From a virus: DNA of 64,000 nucleotides. The stretch spans positions 1 through 64,000 of the IMG/VR virus record IMGVR_UViG_3300032431_000008. One strand, written 5' to 3'. Under the pieces are notes generated by a model. That model made no database searches. It was not told where the DNA came from and was given only the letters and a program-made list of their open reading frames with translations. Below are positions 2,397 to 63,973 of the stretch, piece after piece. Position 1 is the stretch's first letter. Every line of letters begins with the position of its first letter. Made by a program: the position numbers and the translations under genes.

Positions 2397-3749
2397 TCAC
2401 CCGCAGTAATTGTCGAAGCGGGTTATCGTGTTGGAAAAAGCGAGGTTCACGTCGCCTACCTCCCCATTGCGGTTCTTGTTAATCATTAGCCCCATCAGGT
2501 TAGATGCGGTCTGGAACTCGTCGCCTTCTGCTTTGGGCCGGTAGAGCATCATCACCACGTCGGCATCCTGTTCAATTGCGCCGGACTCGCGCAGGTCGGA
2601 CAGGCGGGGCTTGCGGTCGCCTTTCTCGGAATCGCGGTTAAGCTGGGCAAGGACCATAACGGGGATGTTCAGTTCCTTGGCCAATGCCTTGAGCCCCTTG
2701 GAAGCTTCGGCAACCTGTTGCTCACGGGGCGAGCGGGGATTGGCGGGGGCGATGAGCTGCATGTAGTCAACCACGATAAGGGAGAGCGGTTTCTTGGCGT
2801 GGAGCCTGCGGGCCTTGGCGCGGATCTGCATCACGGTGGGACTGGAAGCCTCGTCAATGTAGAGCCGGGACGCCATAAACTCTTTCTCGGCTGCTTCCAG
2901 GCTGTTCAGGTCGGAGGCGGAAAGCATGCCAGCGCGAATCATTTTCTGGTTCACGCGCGCTCGGGATGAGGCCAAGCGTTTTCCAAGTTCTACGGCGGAC
3001 ATTTCCATGGAGAAGACGAGGCAGTTTCCTTGGGCTTTACGGCCATGGAGCGGTAAGGCTACGGCTTCGGCTATGTTCATGGCGAGGGAGGTCTTTCCGC
3101 AGGAAGGACGGCCTGCCAGAACTATCATTTCAGACCCCTTCATACCCCAAAGGATTTGGTCAATGTCTTTAAGGCCGGTGGAAAGGCCGGTCATGGCTCC
3201 CTTGTCCTTGGCCATTTGCTTAAAGGTGGCAACGGCTGCGGACACGCAGGCACCTGCATGTTCAGCCCCGTCTTGAACGCGGGTCTGTGTGACGGCAAAT
3301 ATGTCGGACTCGATTTTATCCACGAACTCGGCAATGTTTCCGGTGTAGCTGTAACAGCCTTCTACGCCTGCGGTGCATACACGGATCATCTCGCGCAGTA
3401 GGGCAAGTTCCCGGACTTTCTCGATGAAGTAGGACACGCCTGCCGTGGTGGGGACGCGCCCGCTTATGCGGGTAAGGTAGGCGTAGCCGCCAATTTCATC
3501 TAGCTGCTTGGAAGTTTTGAGTTCTTCGGCTAGAACGGAAACGTCAATGAACTTGGCTGTGTTATAGATTTCAAGGAGTTTTTCGTAGCAGACGCGGTTG
3601 GCCGGGATTAGAAAGTCAGTGGGGGCAACCTTGCTTTCGATGCACTTGGAGATTACGTCCGCGCCGTCCAGTAAGCAGGCGGAAAGCAACTGCTCTTCGG
3701 CCTCAACGGAATGGGGGGGGACGCGGCCTAGGTTGGATTGTTGGGTCAT
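2397..3749 (-). CDS. dnaB: replicative DNA helicase, DnaB family
   Basis: 450 residues, the normal length for DnaB. It is a hexameric ATP-dependent 5'-3' helicase that unwinds the replication fork. The N-terminal DnaB domain opens with RVPPHSVEAEEQ (about 9-20). The RecA-like domain shows Walker A GRPSCGKT (213-220), FSMEMS (246-251), Walker B VVDYMQL (326-332), AQLNR (368-372) and DLRESGAIEQDADVV (385-399). All key residues are present. Its start overlaps the stop of the upstream small gene as ATGA. Two genes upstream lies the O-like initiator, which likely loads it. No primase is seen, so priming probably comes from the host. Confidence 0.96.
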   Translation of the reverse strand: MTQQSNLGRVPPHSVEAEEQLLSACLLDGADVISKCIESKVAPTDFLIPANRVCYEKLLEIYNTAKFIDVSVLAEELKTSKQLDEIGGYAYLTRISGRVPTTAGVSYFIEKVRELALLREMIRVCTAGVEGCYSYTGNIAEFVDKIESDIFAVTQTRVQDGAEHAGACVSAAVATFKQMAKDKGAMTGLSTGLKDIDQILWGMKGSEMIVLAGRPSCGKTSLAMNIAEAVALPLHGRKAQGNCLVFSMEMSAVELGKRLASSRARVNQKMIRAGMLSASDLNSLEAAEKEFMASRLYIDEASSPTVMQIRAKARRLHAKKPLSLIVVDYMQLIAPANPRSPREQQVAEASKGLKALAKELNIPVMVLAQLNRDSEKGDRKPRLSDLRESGAIEQDADVVMMLYRPKAEGDEFQTASNLMGLMINKNRNGEVGDVNLAFSNTITRFDNYCG

Positions 3750-5151: not shown

Positions 5152-5877
5152 TTAAAGTAAGGTTGTCTGCGCGGTTTCGCGGGCGATGCGCTCTTTAGCC
5201 GCTGCAAAATAGTCCGCGTCGATTTCGCAGGCGGTCAGGTGCATCCCGGCGCAGTGGGCTGCAATGGCGTGCGAGCCCGATCCAAGGTGCGTATCTAGGA
5301 TGCGTTGGCCGGGGATGGCGTAGTTGGCGAGAAGCCAGCGGTAGAGAGCGACCGGCTTTTGGGTCGGGTGGATTCTTTTCTCCTTGTTACTCATGTCTCC
5401 TTGGAGCATTCCATTCCAGCGATACCTAAAGCAATCAATTCTAAGCCCGAATGAATGGCTGGCCAGCTCGCATTTACTGAAAGTGCTAGAATCGTTTTCT
5501 TTGTCCCAAACAATCCGACCAACACTAGCGATGTGTTTTGCGTAATAATTGCACCCCCATATAATTTGATTTTTAGAAACTCGGGCAACCTCATTAAAGT
5601 ATTCTGCATCTGGAACATGCCAATTTTTTTGTTTGGTTGGGAAACGAGTTATTCCTTTTTTGGTGGTATCCGCGCCTGCATAATTTGGCTTTCCGTATTC
5701 TGCAAAATAAGGCGGGTCAGTTATAGCCAGGTCAAAATGGTTATCGGGATAGCGAGCCATAAGCTCCATGCAGTCCTCGCAGCTTAGGTTGAGTGAGCCA
5801 ACGGCAACGGCGGCATGGCGGGGAGTGGCTTCCGCGCCGTTGCTTTCAAGGGAAAAGGTTTCAGTAGTGGTATTCAT
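5152..5877 (-). CDS. DNA adenine methyltransferase (beta-class)
   Basis: 241 residues. It transfers a methyl group from S-adenosylmethionine to DNA. Motif IV DPPY is near the N-terminus (54-57), RIHPTQKP (168-175) precedes the AdoMet-binding motif LDTHLGSGS (194-202), and CEID (217-220) follows. This order is that of beta-class N6-adenine (or N4-cytosine) methyltransferases, and DPPY favours adenine. No restriction enzyme is adjacent, so it is probably an orphan enzyme that protects or marks phage DNA. It is the first gene of the leftward block, behind a CTTACTT motif 56 bp upstream. Target sequence unknown. Confidence 0.9.
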   Translation of the reverse strand: MNTTTETFSLESNGAEATPRHAAVAVGSLNLSCEDCMELMARYPDNHFDLAITDPPYFAEYGKPNYAGADTTKKGITRFPTKQKNWHVPDAEYFNEVARVSKNQIIWGCNYYAKHIASVGRIVWDKENDSSTFSKCELASHSFGLRIDCFRYRWNGMLQGDMSNKEKRIHPTQKPVALYRWLLANYAIPGQRILDTHLGSGSHAIAAHCAGMHLTACEIDADYFAAAKERIARETAQTTLL

Positions 5878-11683: not shown

Positions 11684-12340
11684 ATGTATATTGTAAATGA
11701 TAGACTGGTCCGGTATAGCGTAGTTGTCGCCAAGATCATTCCGGCAAAGGGAAAGAAGCGGGAGTTGGTTGCGCAGATTCAGCAAAGCGCGCTCGACTCC
11801 TGGTTAAACGCGGCAAGTAAAGTCGTGCTCTTAAACAGGCCCGAGGAGATTCCGTATCTCAACGTAAAAGGTGCGATGTTTGAGGAAAAGTATGCGGATT
11901 CTCCTACGGTTATTTCAGCAATGGCCGTGCTGGGCGAGGAGTTGCCTGATAGTGGCTATGGTGTTCTGGTTGAGGACAGGGTTATCTTGGAACCAAAGGG
12001 CGCGCACGTTATGAACAACGTCAGGCTTGAGGCGCAACTGAGCAAGGCGTGGGTTGCCGTGGCGGACGTAGATGTTGAGGACTTGGACGGCACTTTGCAC
12101 GGGACAGGCGGGGCGGTGTTCTGGATCAGCAAGACAGTGGCCCGCTACCTCAAGGAGAGTTGCAAGAATCCGCCGCTACTGGAAAACTATCCGGTGTGGG
12201 CGTCGTGGTTGCAGGATGAGATTAAGGCCAAGGTGTTTGGGCATAGATACTTTGACGCCAGCCAGCATAACTTGGCCAAGGTAGTTGTGGTTAAGGGATT
12301 CGATGTGGTCGAGCTTACCATGCCATTTACCAAGCACTAA
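11684..12340 (+). CDS. glycosyltransferase-like protein
   Basis: 218 residues. The strand-helix opening (YSVVVAKIIPAKGK, then SALDSWLNAASKVVLLN) and the acidic VAVADVDVEDLDG (about 124-136) resemble a GT-A fold with a DxD-like site. No family is certain. It is the second of four consecutive genes of this type between scaffold and capsid, starting 21 bp after the HTH fusion and ending 1 bp before the next. Confidence 0.6.
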   Translation: MYIVNDRLVRYSVVVAKIIPAKGKKRELVAQIQQSALDSWLNAASKVVLLNRPEEIPYLNVKGAMFEEKYADSPTVISAMAVLGEELPDSGYGVLVEDRVILEPKGAHVMNNVRLEAQLSKAWVAVADVDVEDLDGTLHGTGGAVFWISKTVARYLKESCKNPPLLENYPVWASWLQDEIKAKVFGHRYFDASQHNLAKVVVVKGFDVVELTMPFTKH

Positions 12341-37783: not shown

Positions 37784-38026
37784 ATGATACATTTATTACA
37801 ATCATTTGCAGGCGGATTATGTTTCGCCTTTGGTGCCTTCGTAGGCATCGGTGTTGCTGGCCTGCTGGTTGGGCGTCGGGATAAAGCGCGTGATGCTTTT
37901 TACCAAAACGAGTTCATGAATCTTAACAAGAAGATTGAGCAACGTCTTGGTAAGCAGGTGGAAGCCTTAGAAGTAATTGCTAAAGCCGCTTCGGCGAAGA
38001 ATACCAATGAAACGAAAACTGAATAA
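37784..38026 (+). CDS. small membrane protein with charged tail
   Basis: 80 residues. One or two membrane-spanning turns at 4-30 (SFAGGLCFAFGAFVGIGVAG) then a charged helix with a coiled-coil character (NLNKKIEQRLGKQVEAL). Overlaps the heptad-repeat gene by 20 bp. No family recognised. Confidence 0.65.
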   Translation: MIHLLQSFAGGLCFAFGAFVGIGVAGLLVGRRDKARDAFYQNEFMNLNKKIEQRLGKQVEALEVIAKAASAKNTNETKTE

Positions 38027-38309
38027 ACAATTGCATCAACTGACTGGTGATGTGACTGCACTAACCGGCAACGTGCGCGAATTGGTTGGCTACGTGGACG
38101 GCCTTTATGGAAACGCTACTGGACTCCAAGGCGATGTAACTGGATTGAGCGGAGACGCTAGCCAACTTTACGGCGACGTAACTAGACTGACTGGCGATGT
38201 AACGGGATTGAGGGGCAATGCGACCGGCTTCTTTGGCAACGTAGACGACTGCAAGTTATCGAGAAAAGACCGTTCCAACTGCATTAACATACAGGATCTA
38301 ATCGCATGA
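38007..38309 (+). CDS. GDV heptad-repeat protein
   Basis: 100 residues. Residues about 9-80 are eleven consecutive 7-residue repeats of pattern L-x-G-(D/N)-(V/A)-(T/x)-x (LTGDVTALTGNVRELVG...). Each turn carries a Gly then Asp/Asn and a small hydrophobic residue, which fits a tight beta-solenoid rather than a coiled coil. The C-terminus has two Cys and a charged end. The start at 38007 overlaps the previous gene by 20 bp, and the end overlaps the nuclease gene as ATGA. Possibly a DNA mimic or structural coil; function unknown. Confidence 0.75.
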   Translation: MKRKLNKQLHQLTGDVTALTGNVRELVGYVDGLYGNATGLQGDVTGLSGDASQLYGDVTRLTGDVTGLRGNATGFFGNVDDCKLSRKDRSNCINIQDLIA

Positions 38310-39139
38310 GCAAAACTGATGTAAGCCATTTCTACCGGCTGTTACCCACGGGTAAAGTCGAGTCCGCCTACGGTGCTTCGATCAAGGAAGCACGGGCAGG
38401 CGGATTATTCGCCTCGGCAACCATGGCCCTTAAGATGGTGGCCAATGTCGGGTTGGACATTTGGATCAGAGCAAACCTGTTGGACGCGATGGTGAACAAC
38501 CCGCGCAATCCTGCGATGGAAAGTATCGAGGACTACAAGCAACGCATAGATGAGCTAAGCGAGGTTAAACGCACCAACGCTGCTGAGTTCGGCACGGCCC
38601 TACACAACGCCCTAGAGCACTACCCGCTGCCCTGCCAGGACGACAAGGTGGCCCTTCACTACGCAGCCTGCGTCCCTTGGTTAAAAGCCAACGTGGCAAG
38701 CGTGATTGGCAGTGAGCTTATGCTGGCAGATGAACAGATAGGCTTTGCGGGCAAGACGGACTTGGTGTTTTTCGACAATGCAGGGGTGCCCTTCATCGTG
38801 GACTTTAAGACTACCGGCTTTAAGAAAACCAAGACTGGCAAGTGGGCTAAGCCTGCGTTTTACCAGTCATGGGTAAGACAGTTGGCGTTCTACGCCCGGT
38901 CCTACCAGAAGAAGTACGGCGGGCCATTGCCAAGGGTTATCTCGCTAGCCATTAACTCGGGTGAGCCATGCGAGCCGGTTGCGCGGTTCTGGACCGTGGA
39001 AGAGCAGGAGCAGGGCATGAACGAGTTCCTTTGCGCGGCCTACCTGTATTCCTGCGACCGGGACCATTGGCCTGCGGGTCTGTGGGAGTTGAAGGAGCAA
39101 CGAGGTGGGTCCGTGTCAGTGGACGTGACAATCGTTTAA
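38306..39139 (+). CDS. PD-(D/E)XK exonuclease, Cas4/RecB-like
   Basis: 277 residues. It contains GTALH (96-100, the early His), an acidic residue near E137, TD at 151-152, IVDFKT (164-169) which supplies the D-x-K part, and QLAFYA (192-197, the conserved Q/Y motif). This set is the RecB-like nuclease core. Substrates are probably DNA ends, in phage recombination with the SSB-like protein and RusA. No helicase part is fused. Confidence 0.88.
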   Translation: MSKTDVSHFYRLLPTGKVESAYGASIKEARAGGLFASATMALKMVANVGLDIWIRANLLDAMVNNPRNPAMESIEDYKQRIDELSEVKRTNAAEFGTALHNALEHYPLPCQDDKVALHYAACVPWLKANVASVIGSELMLADEQIGFAGKTDLVFFDNAGVPFIVDFKTTGFKKTKTGKWAKPAFYQSWVRQLAFYARSYQKKYGGPLPRVISLAINSGEPCEPVARFWTVEEQEQGMNEFLCAAYLYSCDRDHWPAGLWELKEQRGGSVSVDVTIV

Positions 39140-39482: not shown

Positions 39483-39689
39483 ATGAAAACCATTATCGAC
39501 GGCTCTACGCTCCTCGTTCTCGTATTATTCCAAGTCACGCTTGCAATCTGCATGGTGACTGCATGGTGTGTTAACTTCTTCAAGCTCACGCAATGTGACT
39601 TCCAAGCCCCGTATAAGGGCGAGGCTATCCACGCAGTGGGGATTATCCCGCCGTTCGCGTTGGTGACGGTATGGTTCAACGCAAAGTAA
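39483..39689 (+). CDS. small membrane protein
   Basis: 68 residues with two hydrophobic helices (about 9-30 and 50-63). Its stop codon (TAA at 39687) lies inside the first attC-like site, as is usual for integron cassette genes. No family recognised. Confidence 0.6.
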   Translation: MKTIIDGSTLLVLVLFQVTLAICMVTAWCVNFFKLTQCDFQAPYKGEAIHAVGIIPPFALVTVWFNAK

Positions 39690-39750
39690 GCCATGAACCC
39701 AAACGAAAAACCTGCCGCTGAAATGGCTTCTCTGCATCGCCTGGTTAGCG
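39674..39750 (+). other. attC-like site A (degenerate 5' half)
   Basis: 5' R-box GTTCAAC (fits RYYYAAC) at 39674-39680 and 3' core GTTAGCG at 39744-39750 (one mismatch to GTTRRRY). L' arm TGGCTTCTCTG is identical to site B, but the upstream L'' arm is degenerate. The 3' half shares 52 bp with site B with two mismatches. Confidence 0.6.
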
Positions 39751-40013
39751 GGCGTGCTTTTATTTATTGGCTTTTTATCTACCAGAAATGGCCGATAAAG
39801 CCCCTAGCCAAGAATCTGTGGGCGCTTTGGTATGCGATTAAAGATTTGGCGTGCGCTCTCTGGAAACTGGCGGTGATACCGTTCGCACCCGTAGCTTGCG
39901 CGCTCGCCATGCTCGCCGACGCAAAGATTCGCGCACAGGTAATAGAGATGCACGCCAGCCGCGCAACGCCGCGTAAGACCGCCGACATTATCGGCACAAT
40001 TTCATATCGCTAA
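39693..40013 (+). CDS. cassette-type hypothetical membrane protein
   Basis: 106 residues. The first 16 residues (MNPNEKPAAEMASLHR) are encoded by the attC-like repeat itself and recur in the next cassette. From there the chain has hydrophobic/aromatic stretches (YWLFIYQKWP, LWALWYAIKDLACALWKL) consistent with membrane association. The stop lies in the next attC. No function assigned. Confidence 0.55.
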   Translation: MNPNEKPAAEMASLHRLVSGRAFIYWLFIYQKWPIKPLAKNLWALWYAIKDLACALWKLAVIPFAPVACALAMLADAKIRAQVIEMHASRATPRKTADIIGTISYR

Positions 40014-40112
40014 CAAAACAGATCAGAGAGCCAACCCCCAACCCTAGAATAACTATGAACCCAAACGAAAAACCTGCCGCTCAAATGGCTTCTCTGCATC
40101 GCATGGTTAGGC
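40008..40112 (+). other. attC-like site B
   Basis: R'' region CGCTAAC (40008-40014), L'' CAGAGAGCCA (40024-40033), L' TGGCTTCTCTG (40086-40096), R' GTTAGGC (40106-40112). L' pairs with L'' through ten bases leaving one extrahelical T, and the 9-nt spacers on both sides are equal. This is the defining geometry of an integron attC. The R'' box matches only in part. Confidence 0.72.
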
Positions 40113-40399
40113 ACGGTGTATTTTCGGAATTGAAGTGTGATTGCCCGCATCGAAAGGACTGGCGAAATAATGCGGGCGGCGACATGTCCGACTGCACTCT
40201 GCACGACTCGGGAAATCTGCCGCCTTGCATACCGGAAATCTGCCCACTGTTTAACAGCGACGACCCCAAAGGCGATCACGACAATATGCGGACGGAAGAG
40301 GAAGTGGAGGGAACATGGCTTCCGCCTAACAATCGCAGTCAGCGAGCCGTGAACCCCGCTTCGACAAGCAAAAGCGACGAGCATACGGCTTCGCTGTAG
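40055..40399 (+). CDS. cassette-type hypothetical protein
   Basis: 114 residues from ATG 40055, or 98 from ATG 40103, which overlaps the GTTAGGC core. The first start reuses the repeat-encoded leader. Cys-rich middle (LKCDCPHRKDW, DCTLHDSGNLPPC, CPLF) may bind a metal. The reading frame passes through the next attC without a stop until 40399, so the 3' end may be artefactual. Confidence 0.45.
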   Translation: MNPNEKPAAQMASLHRMVRHGVFSELKCDCPHRKDWRNNAGGDMSDCTLHDSGNLPPCIPEICPLFNSDDPKGDHDNMRTEEEVEGTWLPPNNRSQRAVNPASTSKSDEHTASL

Positions 40400-40412
40400 T
40401 GCTTGGTTGGGC
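40324..40412 (+). other. attC-like site C
   Basis: R'' GCCTAAC (40324-40330), L'' CAGCGAGCCGT (40340-40350), L' ACGGCTTCGCTG (40385-40396), R' GTTGGGC (40406-40412). L'' and L' pair over 11 bases with one extrahelical T. Spacers R''-L'' and L'-R' are both 9 nt. Best match of the three to the attC consensus (RYYYAAC...GTTRRRY). Confidence 0.82.
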
Positions 40413-40436: not shown

Positions 40437-40751
40437 ATGACTACATACCAAATACGCAACGCCCAGCTCGACGGCATCTACATTGACTTCGTAGATGAAC
40501 AAGTAGCCGCCCACTATTGGCGCGGAAATATCGAAAATTGCAGCGACACCGACTCCCGCAAGGGTGCCGTTATGGGCCGCTACACCCGTGAAAGCGAAGC
40601 CGAGGCAGACCGCGCGCGCCTCGACTGGCTCGATGGAAACAGGAGTGCGGCGCTCTCAGCGAGACGATTCATCCGCGACGTTATCGACGACCACCGCAAG
40701 CTCAGGCTTAGCGAGTTCGTGCAGCTTTTGCCTCTGCCCAACAAGGAGTAG
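40437..40751 (+). CDS. cassette-type hypothetical protein
   Basis: 104 residues. It begins 25 bp after the core of attC site C, as expected for the gene of the next cassette, but no attC follows. The chain (MTTYQIRNAQLDGIYIDFVD, ESEAEADRARLDWLDGN) is globular and helical at the end. Family unknown. Confidence 0.6.
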   Translation: MTTYQIRNAQLDGIYIDFVDEQVAAHYWRGNIENCSDTDSRKGAVMGRYTRESEAEADRARLDWLDGNRSAALSARRFIRDVIDDHRKLRLSEFVQLLPLPNKE

Positions 40752-40807: not shown

Positions 40808-41143
40808 ATGAAACGCACCCCCATTAAGAAAGTAAAAAGCAAGAGGGCCAAGGAATTGCGCGAGTATTCCAAGCTACGCGAAGCCTACCTTGCTGCCCAC
40901 CCCCATTGCCAAGCGACGATACGGCTGAATGGGCTGAACGAGGCGGAGGTGATTGAGCGTCACGGGCATTATGGCACTGGCTTTATGGTGCCACTGGCCA
41001 CGGAGATTCACCACGTAGGCAAGCGATACGGTTCCCGGTTAAACGATACGGCAAAGTGGCTGGCCGTGTGCCGGACCATGCACATAGCTATCGAGCAGGA
41101 TAAGACCTGGGCTCGGACGAATGGCCTGCTTGACAACTACTGA
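40808..41143 (+). CDS. HNH-like endonuclease, divergent
   Basis: 111 residues. It shows EIHHVGKRYG (about 70-79), LAVCRTMH (86-93 region) and the terminal WARTNGLL typical of small phage HNH nucleases that read EIHH...CRxCHxxIH. Here the second zinc Cys is Met and the final H is replaced (MHIAIEQ), so metal binding or activity may be reduced. Basic N-terminus (MKRTPIKKVKSKRAKEL). Confidence 0.65.
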   Translation: MKRTPIKKVKSKRAKELREYSKLREAYLAAHPHCQATIRLNGLNEAEVIERHGHYGTGFMVPLATEIHHVGKRYGSRLNDTAKWLAVCRTMHIAIEQDKTWARTNGLLDNY

Positions 41144-41169: not shown

Positions 41170-41430
41170 ATGAAACAACAGCCTAGACCGACCCGGAAAC
41201 AGTTTATGAAGCGCGTCCAAGTGGACATTGCAAAGCTTGAGCAGGACGCGGCGGTGCCCCGCATGATGGCAGAAGCTTTGTGCTGGCACTTTGAGCTTAG
41301 CTCCGACCGCATTGGCGAGATTGTAAATGCGTATCTTGGATGGATAGAAGCTGGCGGTAAGCCGGTGGAGCGGGTGAATGAACAAGACCTTCCAGTAATC
41401 CATGGAGTCGTATGCCCGCCGCTCGTTTAA
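41170..41430 (+). CDS. hypothetical helical protein
   Basis: 86 residues. Two helices (FMKRVQVDIAKLEQDAAVPRMMAEAL, LSSDRIGEIVNAYLGWIEAGG) and no recognised motif. It overlaps the RusA-like gene by 19 bp. Confidence 0.6.
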   Translation: MKQQPRPTRKQFMKRVQVDIAKLEQDAAVPRMMAEALCWHFELSSDRIGEIVNAYLGWIEAGGKPVERVNEQDLPVIHGVVCPPLV

Positions 41431-41843
41431 CCAGTGGCCAACTCGAAAAAGTCTTGTCCCGTAGTGGCTACGCTATTACAGGCGGCACTGTTGCCAAGCC
41501 ATGCCTACCCCGTGAAGGTAGTAATACCGATCCGTTGCCCGAGTTGGAATGCTATCTTGACGGCGGGGCATTGGCAAAGGGCGAAGATAAAAAAGCAAGT
41601 GCAGGCCGCTTTCTTGTCAGGGTTAAAGTCTTTCGGAAGCGATTCATTGACCCCGATAACGTCAGCCTTAAATACGCAATTGACTGCCTACGTTACGGAA
41701 GCATTTTGCCGGATGATAGAGCAGAAGACATTAAGCTCGAAATCGAGGAGCAAATCAAAGTCAAAACCGACGCAGAAGAAAGAATTGAAATCGAAATCTA
41801 CGGGCCTGATTCCGTGGAAGCCAAGCAAGCGAACCAAAGGTAA
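41412..41843 (+). CDS. RusA-like Holliday junction resolvase
   Basis: 143 residues. The C-terminal half carries the RusA signature: VRVKVFRKRFIDPDN (about 70-84, the D-x-DN active site), SLKYAIDCLRYGSILPDD and EEQIKVKTDAEERIEIEI. The enzyme resolves four-way junctions and needs acidic residues that are present. A second open frame (41434-41850) covers the same DNA and encodes at its start PVKVVIPIRCPSWNAIL, which looks like a RusA N-terminal strand. The two frames share an A-AAA-AAG heptamer near 41589-41595, so a -1 shift could join them (see findings). Confidence 0.72.
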   Translation: MPAARLTSGQLEKVLSRSGYAITGGTVAKPCLPREGSNTDPLPELECYLDGGALAKGEDKKASAGRFLVRVKVFRKRFIDPDNVSLKYAIDCLRYGSILPDDRAEDIKLEIEEQIKVKTDAEERIEIEIYGPDSVEAKQANQR

Positions 41844-55104: not shown

Positions 55105-55706
55105 TGGGTGGGATTCATGGGGTGGGCGTGGAGTTTTTCTATGTTGAGTTTTTCAAGGGCGGCTCGTGCGGTAACTTCGCAGAAGGTAAGGACTGTAAGG
55201 GACTGATTGTAGTCGTATGAGGCTTGGTTAAACGCGGCGCGGTCAATGAATCGGTTGGCGTAAGCGTCGGAGACCTTGATTTTACGTTCTGCGCATTTCC
55301 TTTTAGCTTCAGTGAGGTCGGCTAGTGCAACATTGTGGGCGGCAACATTGATTGCTTTGGCCTCGGCTTCCTTTACGGCTACACCGGATTCATTGTAGGC
55401 TTGCATGGCGGCATCTAAAGCTTCGTCGGTTTTGCCGGGGTTGCATAAAGTTTCTGCAAAGACCTCGCCAAGTTCTTCGCGTTTGCGGTTAAGCTCGTCC
55501 AGCGATACCGGGCCTTCGCCGTCCATGAAGACCGTGGACGCGGGGCCGGAAACACGGGTAGTGGCTACGGCTTTAAGGATCTCAAATGTCTCGCCCGTGT
55601 GCTGGTTGGCAAGGCGTTCAGTCTCGGCTTGAGCAAGGGCGAGCGTTGCGTGGCGAACGGTGGGGGGATGGCTATTTTTGCGGAGGACGTAGTAGTAAGG
55701 TTTCAT
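55101..55706 (-). CDS. hypothetical helical protein
   Basis: 201 residues. Beta start (MKPYYYVLRKNSHPPTVR), then mostly helical (LDAAMQAYNESGVAVKEAEA, LADLTEAKRKCAERKIKV). Overlaps RNA ligase upstream by ATGA. Confidence 0.6.
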   Translation of the reverse strand: MKPYYYVLRKNSHPPTVRHATLALAQAETERLANQHTGETFEILKAVATTRVSGPASTVFMDGEGPVSLDELNRKREELGEVFAETLCNPGKTDEALDAAMQAYNESGVAVKEAEAKAINVAAHNVALADLTEAKRKCAERKIKVSDAYANRFIDRAAFNQASYDYNQSLTVLTFCEVTARAALEKLNIEKLHAHPMNPTQ

Positions 55707-56311
55707 AGGCGAATAGATTTGGGTGAACCGTCATTTTCGAGGGTTTTCTTAAAGCCTAGATTGCCCGCAATGTGCCAGCAAACTATGCCCTCGGGTAACT
55801 TAAACCCTGGCGCGGCCTTGCTGCCGCCCGTTCTCAATGCCCATAATGCGGCATCGCAAGCGTCGGTGGTGAACGGTCCTTGGTAAAGGATGGGCACGAC
55901 GCCAACGCAGGGAGGTAGCACGTCTTGCCACTTATTAACCCGTGGATCAGCCGTGGGCATTGCGCGGGGCGTTTCGCCGTGCAGGCACCAGCGGTCGGCA
56001 TTGAACAGGCTTAGTCGCTTTTCGCCTTTTGGCAGGTTATAGCCGCGCTGGATGCCAGACCCCCACCATTCGCCGAAGTGACGGCCTGTGCCAAGGGTAA
56101 GCAATTCTTCGCGGTGTTGGGAGCACCACGTAGCAAAGCCGTGGTTGTCGTCGCCGGGGGTGATCCAGCGGTTGCGCGAGCCGGTCATTATTTGGCCGTC
56201 CTCGGTGATGAGGATTTGGGCGTTCGTGCCGTCGATTTTCTCACTGATAATGCAGTCGCGGGAGAGGCGAGCTAGTTTAGGGAATCCGGTAAATTCGGTG
56301 TTGGTGTTCAT
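55703..56311 (-). CDS. RNA ligase-like protein (Rnl2-like family)
   Basis: 202 residues. It carries the nucleotidyl-transferase lysine motif KIDGTN (25-30), FGEWWG (79-84, motif III-like), PEGIVCW near 173-179 (motif IV) and FKK near 190 (motif V). These fit ATP-dependent RNA/polynucleotide ligases that adenylate on the motif-I lysine. The chain is short, so probably a core catalytic unit without a C-terminal domain. It may repair cleaved host tRNA or RNA. Close to the nucleotidyltransferase-like gene. Confidence 0.82.
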   Translation of the reverse strand: MNTNTEFTGFPKLARLSRDCIISEKIDGTNAQILITEDGQIMTGSRNRWITPGDDNHGFATWCSQHREELLTLGTGRHFGEWWGSGIQRGYNLPKGEKRLSLFNADRWCLHGETPRAMPTADPRVNKWQDVLPPCVGVVPILYQGPFTTDACDAALWALRTGGSKAAPGFKLPEGIVCWHIAGNLGFKKTLENDGSPKSIRL

Positions 56312-58325: not shown

Positions 58326-58780
58326 CCGGTAGGCTTGTTTTTATCTATCAGGCCAAGGCAGGGTTTTCCTTCTTCGGACAGAATTACGTGAAACTCGGGG
58401 GAGATATTGCAAGAAATCCCCTTTTTTTCATATTCCTTTGCCAGTTCCTCAATGCACGTAGTGGCACACTGCAATAGGTGTTCCATTTGGGCACTTGGAA
58501 TGGGGCCGTATTTGGTAAATGCAAAGAGCATGGCTTGCGTGATTATTGTTTGCGCCTCGGTATTAGTAAAGGGGGAGTCTTCCATAAGATTGCCCTCGTT
58601 TTTGCCAATAATGTTTGGGGTTTCTAGGCAATGTAAAAGGCATGCGTGGATTGCATCTGCGCGTTCTTGGCCGGTTTTGCCGTTAGTGGCAAAAAACAAA
58701 TCTCTTATTGTTTCACAGCATGTGTTAATGAATAATGAATAGGAGTTGAGGGACTTGGCCTCTGTTTGTTCTTGGTTCAT
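58322..58780 (-). CDS. hypothetical protein
   Basis: 152 residues (MNQEQTEAKSLNSYSLFI), helical with Cys (CCETIRDLFFATNGKTGQER). Overlaps the FkbM gene by ATGA. A/T-richer than neighbours. Confidence 0.6.
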   Translation of the reverse strand: MNQEQTEAKSLNSYSLFINTCCETIRDLFFATNGKTGQERADAIHACLLHCLETPNIIGKNEGNLMEDSPFTNTEAQTIITQAMLFAFTKYGPIPSAQMEHLLQCATTCIEELAKEYEKKGISCNISPEFHVILSEEGKPCLGLIDKNKPTG

Positions 58781-59493
58781 TTCTGATAGGTGGCGAAAAT
58801 ATCGAATTGTGGCGAGTCGCTGGTCAGGGACTTGTCGGTTATTTCCCAGGTGTAGCCATGGCGGTGTAGAATGTCGGTAACGTCGGCCATTACATTACCT
58901 TGGCGGGCTAGTGCGCCGTGGTTAATCTCGATGAGGAGGTCGGGCTTGTGGTTGGTGAGTGTGTTTTCGGCGGAGAGGAGTGCTTTTACTTCCCATCCTT
59001 CCACGTCTATTTTAATGAACGAGAGCGGTTCGTCATTGTTTAAGATGAACCAGCAAATCCAGTCGATGGACCTGACCTTGATTTCGCTTCCGGTATTTTC
59101 AGTGCGGGCGAGATACGATGCGCCTGCGTTGGTATCGGCGATGAGTTCAACGGTGGCTAGCGAGTCCGCGTCCGTGCCCACTGCGTAATTCATCGCTATG
59201 GCACTTAGGTTAAGTTCAAGATTGTGTTGAATGTTGTATTCCAAGCAAGCAAAGGCGTGGGGGTTGGGCTCAACGGCAAGGACTACGCCCATTGGCCCGA
59301 CATGCTTGGACATGGTAAGGGCGGTATCGCCAATGAATGCGCCAATATCAATGCACACGCCACCGACTTTGACGTTCTTAAGCCAAGGAAGGATCTGCCC
59401 TTCTTGAATGTCGAGACGACCTTGGGATTCTACCCATTGGGAGATATGGCTGTCAGTTTCGATTACGGCTATTCCGTGGGAGGTGAGTTTCAT
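58777..59493 (-). CDS. FkbM-family methyltransferase
   Basis: 238 residues. S-adenosylmethionine-dependent methyltransferase of the FkbM type: IDIGAFIGDTAL (about 48-59, motif I), VEPNP (about 74-78), SFIKIDVEGWE (about 158-168) and LLIEINHG. These enzymes methylate hydroxyls of sugars or other small molecules. Together with the glycosyltransferase-like genes it could modify a glycan or capsid. The position among small genes of unknown function is unusual. Confidence 0.85.
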   Translation of the reverse strand: MKLTSHGIAVIETDSHISQWVESQGRLDIQEGQILPWLKNVKVGGVCIDIGAFIGDTALTMSKHVGPMGVVLAVEPNPHAFACLEYNIQHNLELNLSAIAMNYAVGTDADSLATVELIADTNAGASYLARTENTGSEIKVRSIDWICWFILNNDEPLSFIKIDVEGWEVKALLSAENTLTNHKPDLLIEINHGALARQGNVMADVTDILHRHGYTWEITDKSLTSDSPQFDIFATYQK

Positions 59494-61330: not shown

Positions 61331-63973
61331 ATGACCAATGACCAAGTAAAGTTTATCCACTCGCTCTTGGAGCAAGGCAAGGAGAGCTGGGTAGATGCGG
61401 CCAACGCCATTCTCTACATATCCCAAATACCGGGGCAAGTGGCGCACTACGCGGAGGCCAAGATTATTGTGCGGGCGTTCCTGCAAAGGTTGCTGGACCA
61501 TGACGACTACTTGCTGGCAGCTACGTTGCTGTGGGGGAATGTCCGGTTAAACACGCTTACCCAATATACGCAGGACGTGTTTCGGGCCATGCACGAGAAC
61601 AACATGCTTTTGATCCAGGGTGGGGCATCGACGAGTAAGTGTCTAGGGCCGGACATTCCGGTGATGATGCACGACGGATCAACCAAGAAGGCTAGGGACG
61701 TGGTGGTTGGCGACGTGCTCATGGGGGACGACTCCAATCCTCGGAATGTCCTGAGCACCACAAAAGGCAGGAGCAAGATGTATCGAATCACCCCTGAGCG
61801 TGGTGAATCGTGGATTTGCAATGACGAGCATATCCTGACAATGCGCGTGAATCAGGGCGACAAGTGGGCTGTGTTGGATATTCCCATTAAGGAATACATT
61901 GGATACCCGGAGTCGCGTAAGGCTGCGCTCAAGCAGTTTTCCGTTGGGGTGGAGTTTCCAGAGCAGCCGGTTCCCGAAGATCCATACATTTACGGTGTTC
62001 GGGTCGGCAACAATGAGCCTGGCGGGCAACTGATTCCTGAGTCCTACATGAAGAACAGCCGTGAGAATAGGTTTAGGCTTTTGGAGGGACTACTGGATTC
62101 TGATGGATACGTCGGCAAAACGAAAGCTACGGTCGCTATTAAAACCAAGTGGAAGTCACTTGCTGAGCAGATTGTTTGGCTGGCAAAGAGTCTAGGCTTT
62201 TACGCTAGATTCTCTGGTGACTATTCCTTGGTTTATATCAATTTTGACGAATGTAAATCAACTGCCAATGTTGGCATTGAAGTTGAGGGCATTGGGGAAG
62301 GTGAATACTGCGGGTTTAGCGTGGACGGGAATAGCCGATTCCTTTTGGGGGACTTCACCGTTACGCATAACAGCTACTCGATGGGAGCTTGGTTACTCCT
62401 TGACTGGATAAGAGATCCATATTTTACATCGGTCAAAATAGTCTCCAAGGACGAGAAGCATTTGAAGGGTAATTTGTTTGGCCATATCTACTCCCTGTTC
62501 CAAGGCATGGCTATCCCGCTTACGGATAATGACGCGGAAGAAGTGGTATGGCGGGAGCACGATATGTTCCTTGGACTGAAAGCCGTGGGTAACATTGCCG
62601 GTTTGCAGGGGGAGGCACTTAAGCATTCGTCAAGTTCCTCGGGCGACTTGAAAGGGTATAAGCCTCAACCGCGCCGCAAAACGCCTCACCCAAAGTTCGG
62701 GAACATGTCTCGACTGCGGGTAGCGGTGGATGAGGCGCAATCGGCACCTGTGGGTATATTCCAAGATTTCATGTCCGTGCGAGGTTCCTTGGACGGGCTG
62801 GACTTGGTGAAGATCATTTGTGCCTACAATCCTACCAGCCTGAGCGATAGGGTGGTGAATGAGGCTGAACCTCTCCATGGCTGGATTGAGACCGACCTGG
62901 ACACGCTGTATGAGTGGAAGAGCAAGAAGGGGTGGCGCGTGCTCCGGTTGGATGGCTCGCGGTCGGAAAACGTGGTAGCCAAGAGCAAGATATTCAGTGG
63001 CATCCAGACCTACGAAGGCTTTATAAGTTTCCTGCAAGGTGACGGTGCTGACAGTTCTCCCGACTACTTTACGTTCGGGCGTGGCTGGCCACCTCTCAAG
63101 GGTAGTGCCAACACGATTATCCCTGCTACTTGGTGCGTTGAGGCGCGGGGAGAAGCTGTGTGGTTGGAGAAGCCGATTATGGGGGCAAGCGTGGACCTTG
63201 CGTTCCAAGGAAGCGACACGGCGCAGATGACTATTTTTAAGTGGGGGCTGGCAAAGGGCTGGCGACGTGCCGATGGGAAGTATGTCGAGTATGTTGACCG
63301 GACGAGCGCGGGGCGGAAGAAGCCAAGGCACGTACTGGAAGTTTACCAGATTATCCAGATGGAGAAGTCCTACGATTCCATCCAGATGAGTGAGGAGATT
63401 ACGGGTCGCTGTCAGATGTTGGGGATTTCACCGGATTGGACCGTCGTGGACAAGTCGGGTAGCGGCCTTGGCACGTTCTCCCACCTTACGAAGTATTGGG
63501 GGAATATCATGGGGATTATGTGGGGCGATGGTGCTACGGATATGCTTGTCTTGGCGGAGGACCAAGAGGCCGCGTCGTCCCGGTTCCAAGGGATAATGTC
63601 GGAGATGTGGTTTGCTTTCCGTGAGTGGTTAAACCCCACGGTGGGGGCGATAATTATTAACCCCATGGTCCCAACGTCGCCACTAAACGTGCAGTTGAGT
63701 TCACGCCGGTTTAGGTATGCGAAGAACGGGACGATGAAAGTTGAGAGCAAGGACGAGTATAAGCAACGGAACCAACGTAGCTGCGATGAAGCGGACAGCG
63801 TGATTCAGATTGTGCAGCTTATCCGCGCACGGGGGCATATTTTGCCTGGTATGATGGAACAGTCGGACTCCCGTTTCAGTAATCAGGAAACTGAGAAAGC
63901 TGGGCTGGAGACGGCTGACGTTGACGAATCACTTGCAATTGGCGGAGGGGGAGTCGAATACTTGGACCTATGA
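61331..63973 (+). CDS. terminase large subunit interrupted by an intein
   Basis: 880-residue precursor; 636 residues after splicing. The motor ATPase/nuclease that cuts and packages DNA. The Walker A loop is split: IQGGASTSK precedes Cys104, and SYSMGAW follows the intein, giving GGASTSKSYS when joined. Walker B is RLRVAVDEAQ (nt about 62710). The nuclease domain has VDLAFQGSD (nt about 63190), VVDKSGSG and CDEADSV (nt about 63780) as acidic sites. Its stop overlaps the next gene as ATGA across the window junction. Confidence 0.95.
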   Translation: MTNDQVKFIHSLLEQGKESWVDAANAILYISQIPGQVAHYAEAKIIVRAFLQRLLDHDDYLLAATLLWGNVRLNTLTQYTQDVFRAMHENNMLLIQGGASTSKCLGPDIPVMMHDGSTKKARDVVVGDVLMGDDSNPRNVLSTTKGRSKMYRITPERGESWICNDEHILTMRVNQGDKWAVLDIPIKEYIGYPESRKAALKQFSVGVEFPEQPVPEDPYIYGVRVGNNEPGGQLIPESYMKNSRENRFRLLEGLLDSDGYVGKTKATVAIKTKWKSLAEQIVWLAKSLGFYARFSGDYSLVYINFDECKSTANVGIEVEGIGEGEYCGFSVDGNSRFLLGDFTVTHNSYSMGAWLLLDWIRDPYFTSVKIVSKDEKHLKGNLFGHIYSLFQGMAIPLTDNDAEEVVWREHDMFLGLKAVGNIAGLQGEALKHSSSSSGDLKGYKPQPRRKTPHPKFGNMSRLRVAVDEAQSAPVGIFQDFMSVRGSLDGLDLVKIICAYNPTSLSDRVVNEAEPLHGWIETDLDTLYEWKSKKGWRVLRLDGSRSENVVAKSKIFSGIQTYEGFISFLQGDGADSSPDYFTFGRGWPPLKGSANTIIPATWCVEARGEAVWLEKPIMGASVDLAFQGSDTAQMTIFKWGLAKGWRRADGKYVEYVDRTSAGRKKPRHVLEVYQIIQMEKSYDSIQMSEEITGRCQMLGISPDWTVVDKSGSGLGTFSHLTKYWGNIMGIMWGDGATDMLVLAEDQEAASSRFQGIMSEMWFAFREWLNPTVGAIIINPMVPTSPLNVQLSSRRFRYAKNGTMKVESKDEYKQRNQRSCDEADSVIQIVQLIRARGHILPGMMEQSDSRFSNQETEKAGLETADVDESLAIGGGGVEYLDL
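61640..62371 (+). mobile_element. intein in terminase ATP-binding loop
   Basis: 244 residues (precursor 104-347). It starts with Cys (CLGPDIPVMMHDG, splice block A), has block B as WICNDEHIL with the His present and Asn in place of the usual Thr, a single LAGLIDADG-like stretch LLEGLLDSDGYV (block C), a helical block with WLAKSLGF, and ends VTHN (block G) followed by Ser +1. The second LAGLIDADG motif is missing, so the homing part is probably degenerate. Splicing residues (C1, terminal HN, S+1) are intact. Confidence 0.93.

Follow-up and report, generated by a model that had tools for sequence, protein, structure and literature searches.

A probable phage-borne integron array fragment of Opitutaceae type that has three attC sites but lacks an integrase

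Phage CALINs and related arrays

Phage-borne clusters of attC sites lacking an integrase (CALINs), with functional sites among them, were already published in 2023: 10,705 phage genomes were screened and 17 such clusters found, and IntI1 recombined five of the six attC sites from virulent phages that were tested (Qi et al. 2023, PMC9892861). The locus described here lies in a window of 64,000 nucleotides, this being nearly all of the 64,108-bp virus record IMGVR_UViG_3300032431_000008 of IMG/VR. It is very probably a short fragment of an Opitutaceae-type, and hence verrucomicrobial, integron array, with two cassettes, three attC sites and no integrase, within the recombination-gene module of a double-stranded DNA phage; in other words, a phage-borne CALIN. 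A first-pass annotation had invoked the CALIN concept for this cluster, which is upheld. In this regard, the locus resembles the CALINs of TJE1, PH101, P12002L and MW202573 (PMC9892861) in having at least two attC sites, small cassettes, no integrase and single-gene spacing, but differs from the CALINs described there in its Opitutaceae-type attC sites, its inverted cassette ORFs and the lack of a methyltransferase cassette. What is new is the bacterial lineage, since Opitutaceae are not named for phage CALINs in the sections of PMC9892861 drawn on here; the unusual features are confined to the inverted genes and the start codons within the attC loops.

Two further systems provide useful comparisons. 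The chromosomal arrays of Opitutaceae genomes (L002, L059-L067) share with the phage locus the boxes, spacers and L arms, both unpaired bases and cassette-sized spacing (median 531 bp), whereas the phage array stands in a genome without IntI, has different loops (GGGTTCAY) and carries inverted genes. Moreover, short ORFs in attI1 and attC sites (ORF-11 and the attC ORFs) help to translate the next cassette (PMC8876359). The phage sites are alike in supplying the next cassette with a start codon from within the recombination site, but unlike in that the frame, which is predicted only, runs through the core into the cassette and does not stop there.

Three attC sites and their affinity to Opitutaceae

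Reading of the sequence bears out the three attC-like sites of the first-pass annotation, here A, B and C (Table 1). For B and C, the boxes, the 9-nt spacers and the L arms of 10-11 bp with one unpaired T all match the earlier description, as do the core-to-core distances of 362 and 300 bp, the second of which places at least two attC sites close together, as in a CALIN. The RYYYAAC and GTTRRRY boxes of B and C are present and matched from cassette to cassette, those of A being weaker, and the R' box of B (CGCTAAC on the plus strand) deviates from the GTTRRRY consensus at its final two letters. Besides the T, B and C each have a second unpaired base (a C in B), giving a T-N6-C or similar spacing, and such spacing of the unpaired bases is a known feature of attC sites. 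Moreover, reverse-complementing the core of A gives precisely the left box of B, and the core of B relates in the same way to the left box of C, a pattern that integration of circular cassettes bearing a single attC site should produce. The stops of the preceding genes also fall in the sites as had been described, that of a 68-aa ORF in the left arm of A and that of ORF 1 in the left box of B.

Table 1. Coordinates of the attC sites, cassette ORFs and phage genes in the window
Feature	Position	Strand	Details
attC site A	39674..39750	minus (canonical top strand)	R'' CGCTAAC, L'' GCAGAGAAGCCAT, L' ATGGCTT(A)CTTTGC, R' GTTGAAC; partly decayed
attC site B	40008..40112	minus (canonical top strand)	R'' GCCTAAC, L'' CAGAGAAGCCA, 52-nt loop, L' TGGCTCTCTG, R' GTTAGCG
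attC site C	40324..40412	minus (canonical top strand)	R'' GCCCAAC, L'' CAGCGAAGCCGT, L' ACGGCTCGCTG, R' GTTAGGC
Left box, site A	39674-39680	read on plus	GTTCAAC
Core, site A	39744-39750	read on plus	GTTAGCG
Left box, site B	40008-40014	read on plus	CGCTAAC
Core, site B	40106-40112	read on plus	GTTAGGC
Left box, site C	40324-40330	read on plus	GCCTAAC
Core, site C	40406-40412	read on plus	GTTGGGC
68-aa ORF	39483..39689	plus	3' end (FNAK, TAA) in left arm of site A; missing from related phage L001
ORF 1, 106 aa	39693..40013	plus	Start in loop of site A (MNPNEKPAAEMASLHRLV...); stop TAA within left box of B
ORF 2, 114 aa, Cys-rich	40055..40399	plus	Start in loop of site B (MNPNEKPAAQMASLHRMV...); runs through site C, stop in its right arm
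104-aa ORF	40437..40751	plus	Starts 25 nt past core of site C; missing from L001
PD-(D/E)XK exonuclease-like gene	38306..39139	plus	PF12705, E 3.2e-7; phrog_298; left flank, kept in L001
HNH endonuclease-like gene	40808..41143	plus	Weak PHROG HNH matches; right flank kept in L001
RusA-like Holliday junction resolvase gene	41412..41843	plus	phrog_34, E 3.6e-6; further right flank, collinear with L001
DnaB gene	2397-3749
Divergent terminase large subunit gene	61331-63973

Site A had been credited with a degenerate L'' arm, which is only partly the case. Its weak points, limited to the R box and the arrangement of the bulges, are real, but its L arms do pair, at 13 positions on the minus strand including one G.T. 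With paired L arms and a following GTTGAAC, A is a decayed yet complete attC site, the R' end of which lies inside the 3' end of the 68-aa gene. Recognition of the L' arm also did away with the idea that A is a half-site truncated at its ATG; site B has about 24 extra nucleotides beside its ATG. The probability of the canonical fold is about 0.17-0.33 for A when constrained, 0.25 for B on the plus (bottom) strand, and 0.25 on the plus strand versus 0.012 on the minus strand for C.

A search of the locus against Rfam gave no match, and a covariance model was therefore built from Opitutaceae attC sites; this model was trained solely on seven sites of one Opitutaceae metagenome-assembled genome (MAG) and is not that of IntegronFinder. 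With it, the covariance search proposed in the first-pass annotation returns significant matches at C (35.3 bits on the minus strand, E 2.3e-6 over 256 kb; 15.4 bits on the plus strand) and at B (27.8 bits, E 2.7e-4 over 256 kb, on the minus strand only), and no significant match at A (3.4 bits). Positive controls scored by the same model lie at 29-38 bits for class 1 integron attC sites, to which the scores of B and C are comparable, and at 33.7 bits for a Shewanella phage attC site. When every phage position was compared with the R''-spacer-L'' halves (27 nt) of 150 attC sites from Opitutaceae, B scored highest of some 128,000 positions (24/27), followed by C (23/27) and then A (21/27), each of them on the minus strand. 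A degenerate pattern of arm and box occurs twice in the window as against 0 times in 100 shuffles, and in a simulation of 40 sequences of 64 kb two sites of comparable quality never fell less than 1 kb apart. The combined comparisons confirm A, B and C as predicted integron attC sites that are not due to chance.

The affinity of these sites is indicated by a search of the degenerate pattern through 257 Gb from 84,980 species genomes, which matched exactly one contig, a 7-kb piece of an Opitutaceae MAG that is itself a cassette array with seven attC sites. Sites of this type occur in 81 of 150 genomes of the same family, and IntI scores above the NCBIfam curated cut-off in nine of the ten Opitutaceae genomes examined, in several cases beside arrays (G076, G006, G035). 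It is on this prevalence of attC and IntI, together with the half-site kinship, that the phage sites are called Opitutaceae type, a sequence-based assignment by boxes, spacers and arms. The loops are a different matter: the family-typical loop (TGTCACG...CGCGCCA) is not matched by those of the phage, which have in common GGGTTCAY on the minus strand (RTGAACCC on the plus strand), a motif with 11 scattered matches in Opitutaceae genomes, none of them inside an attC site called by the model. This unlikeness of the loops implies that the exact donor is absent from the genome collection. Among viruses, the degenerate attC pattern matched no other contig of 2.9 million, and neither an exact search for the site sequence nor either of two degenerate attC patterns turned up a further viral contig. 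The genomes L002 and L059-L067 show the Opitutaceae to be a family rich in integrons, and no paper linking Opitutaceae to integron arrays was found in the library of open-licence papers searched.

Polarity of the sites and the cassette reading frames

When the bottom strand of a known attC site folds, the bases left unpaired lie on one side and determine which strand the integrase uses (PMC3053210). In B and C both extra bases, the T and the second one, belong to the right arm, which on the plus strand adjoins GTTRRRY, and the canonical top strand is therefore the minus strand, the recombinogenic bottom strand being the plus strand. The polarity implied in the first-pass annotation is thus reversed, and the plus-strand ORFs are inverted relative to the sites. 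Controls of known gene direction carry the extra base on the gene-side arm, and the phage agrees in this with the class 1 integron of P1 (genes on the minus strand) and is opposite to TJE1 (genes on the plus strand). The strand scores of the covariance model concur with a minus polarity.

The coding frames point the other way. Codon scores trained on the phage are 12.8 bits for cassette 1 and 6.7 bits for cassette 2 on the plus strand, with all minus frames negative; ORF 1, the sole open frame of cassette 1 on either strand, has the best score there, as does ORF 2 on the plus strand of cassette 2. It could nonetheless be argued that the sites are real attC sites but that the cassette genes follow them on the minus strand, the usual arrangement in Opitutaceae cassettes, and that the plus-strand ORFs are spurious antisense frames, given that the attC polarity is minus and that in 107 of 124 Opitutaceae cassettes the longest ORF follows that polarity. 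The phage codon statistics, however, favour the plus strand in both cassettes, every minus frame of cassette 1 is interrupted by 2 to 4 stops, the only minus frame that is open in cassette 2 has a score of -13.7 bits and the neighbouring genes are all on the plus strand, such that minus-strand genes are unlikely. Codon statistics thus place the predicted cassette ORFs on the plus strand, opposed to the attC polarity, which would make these cassettes of the minority inverted type; among the 124 Opitutaceae cassettes the longest ORF runs against the polarity in 17, and strongly so in 4. For the proteins of ORF 1 and ORF 2, family libraries hold no relatives and neither do the Opitutaceae genomes, the latter by single-protein queries of which an empty result proves little. 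The 68-aa ORF has a weak match to phrog_6006 (E 0.0017).

On the plus strand the loops translate as MNPNEKPAAEMASLHRLV (A), MNPNEKPAAQMASLHRMV (B) and VNPASTSKSDEHTASL followed by a stop (C). In keeping with the earlier claim that two genes begin with the same repeat-encoded leader, a 56-nt stretch beginning at an ATG is 96% identical between A and B, and ORFs 1 and 2 open in the leader frame and continue in it straight through the core; the coding role of the leader is less well founded, as its codon scores of 2.1 and -1.0 bits indicate no coding bias. This shared stretch raises the question of whether the whole resemblance to attC is fortuitous and reflects a coding leader of 56 bp (MNPNEKPAAxMASLHRxV) duplicated within the phage. 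Such a duplication would leave unexplained site C, where the loop differs and the boxes and arms do not, as well as the complementarity of the boxes and the similarity of A, B and C alike to Opitutaceae attC, and the leader itself lacks coding bias. Furthermore, the repeats matched no conserved phage coding family, which had been the other possibility raised at the outset, and a chance resemblance is extremely improbable.

With integron attC sites retained as the explanation, translation of the leader fused to the cassette ORFs is a hypothesis, because the leader has no coding bias and ORF 2 could instead start at an in-frame ATG at position 40103, immediately ahead of the core of B. A more ambitious form of the idea would have the sites act as a socket for gene exchange, in which the loop start codon in RTGAACCC, with the leader in A and B, fuses to the inverted cassette beyond the core, such that a host integrase could swap in promoterless and start-less genes that are translated at once. 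This proposal is improbable.

Phage context and possible origin of the array

The record is that of a phage, with tail and virion proteins encoded in addition to the terminase and DnaB. The attC sites sit in a rightward run of genes, between the exonuclease-like and the HNH-like and RusA-like genes, and phage genes on both flanks are collinear with those of L001, the only relative of the flanking genes in IMG/VR. The exonuclease-like gene is 83% identical to its L001 homologue over the aligned length, the RusA-like gene is 57% identical to its counterpart, and the HNH-like gene shows 73% DNA identity over 157 bp. This collinearity makes a chimeric assembly unlikely. The homologues of 39444 and 40808 are separated in L001 by about 185 bp and one small ORF, as against 1,363 bp in the window, and no attC site was found in that L001 interval; therefore, the segment was either gained in the lineage of the window or lost in that of L001. 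Near 12059 in L001 a possible attC remnant was considered but discarded, there being no attC structure at that place. At 12059-12100, just downstream of the HNH homologue, L001 has a mini-ORF (ATGAACCC..., MNPTKDTPTPSYG) that resembles the start of the window leader. No relative of the locus was found among INPHARED phages.

No match to TIGR02249 or PF00589 was found in the 64,108-bp record, which is possibly a fragment. It thus has no integrase and does not amount to a complete integron, with intI and attI, and in the absence of a tyrosine recombinase the array is a passive substrate. Whether it is a substrate at all is less certain. It is conceivable, if somewhat doubtful, that the array is decayed debris of illegitimate recombination on which no integrase acts, as the missing integrase, the decay of site A and the finding of only one such phage by the patterns used might suggest. 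Set against this are the both boxes, both arms and unpaired bases (T-N6-C or similar) retained in B and C, their good fold, and the precedent of virulent-phage attC sites recombining with IntI1 in most of the cases described in PMC9892861. By sequence, B and C appear to keep everything needed for exchange by IntI.

On the reading of the locus as a phage-borne array fragment, the phage probably gained it while infecting an integron-bearing bacterium, with capture either by recombination mediated by the host IntI or by illegitimate recombination. During replication the plus strand, as the recombinogenic bottom strand, could fold into attC hairpins that a host IntI could cut, such that any gain or loss of cassettes would depend on an integrase from the host; the array is probably kept because its plus-strand ORFs are expressed along with the rightward genes of the phage. 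Movement of cassettes between cells by the phage, as envisaged in the first-pass annotation, is only a possibility, but if host IntI acts on the array, phages would be vehicles for cassette exchange among environmental bacteria. The locus would add the Verrucomicrobiota to the lineages whose integron cassettes occur in phages; it also points to a specific donor family, the Opitutaceae, with integrases available for cloning. The reversed genes, together with start codons located inside attC loops, pose the puzzle of how phages express captured cassettes.

Searches for a direct trace of the phage in the Opitutaceae genomes gave no credible terminase relative (one weak partial match) and no CRISPR spacer against the phage stretches tested, the short DNA matches being of low complexity or coding; ten inspected loci with such matches had no CRISPR repeats. 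A 27-kb record from another metagenome (L015, IMGVR_UViG_3300007517_000031) encodes an identical terminase protein, the portion compared stopping short of the attC region. Upstream of the exonuclease gene, within an ORF at 37977-38309, positions 38039-38247 of the window hold tandem-like degenerate direct repeats of 62 nt and 19 nt (CGATGTAACTGGATTGAGC type). The phage also encodes, all on the minus strand, an N6/N4 DNA methylase (5152-5877), an RNA ligase (55703-56311) and an FkbM-type methyltransferase (58777-59493).
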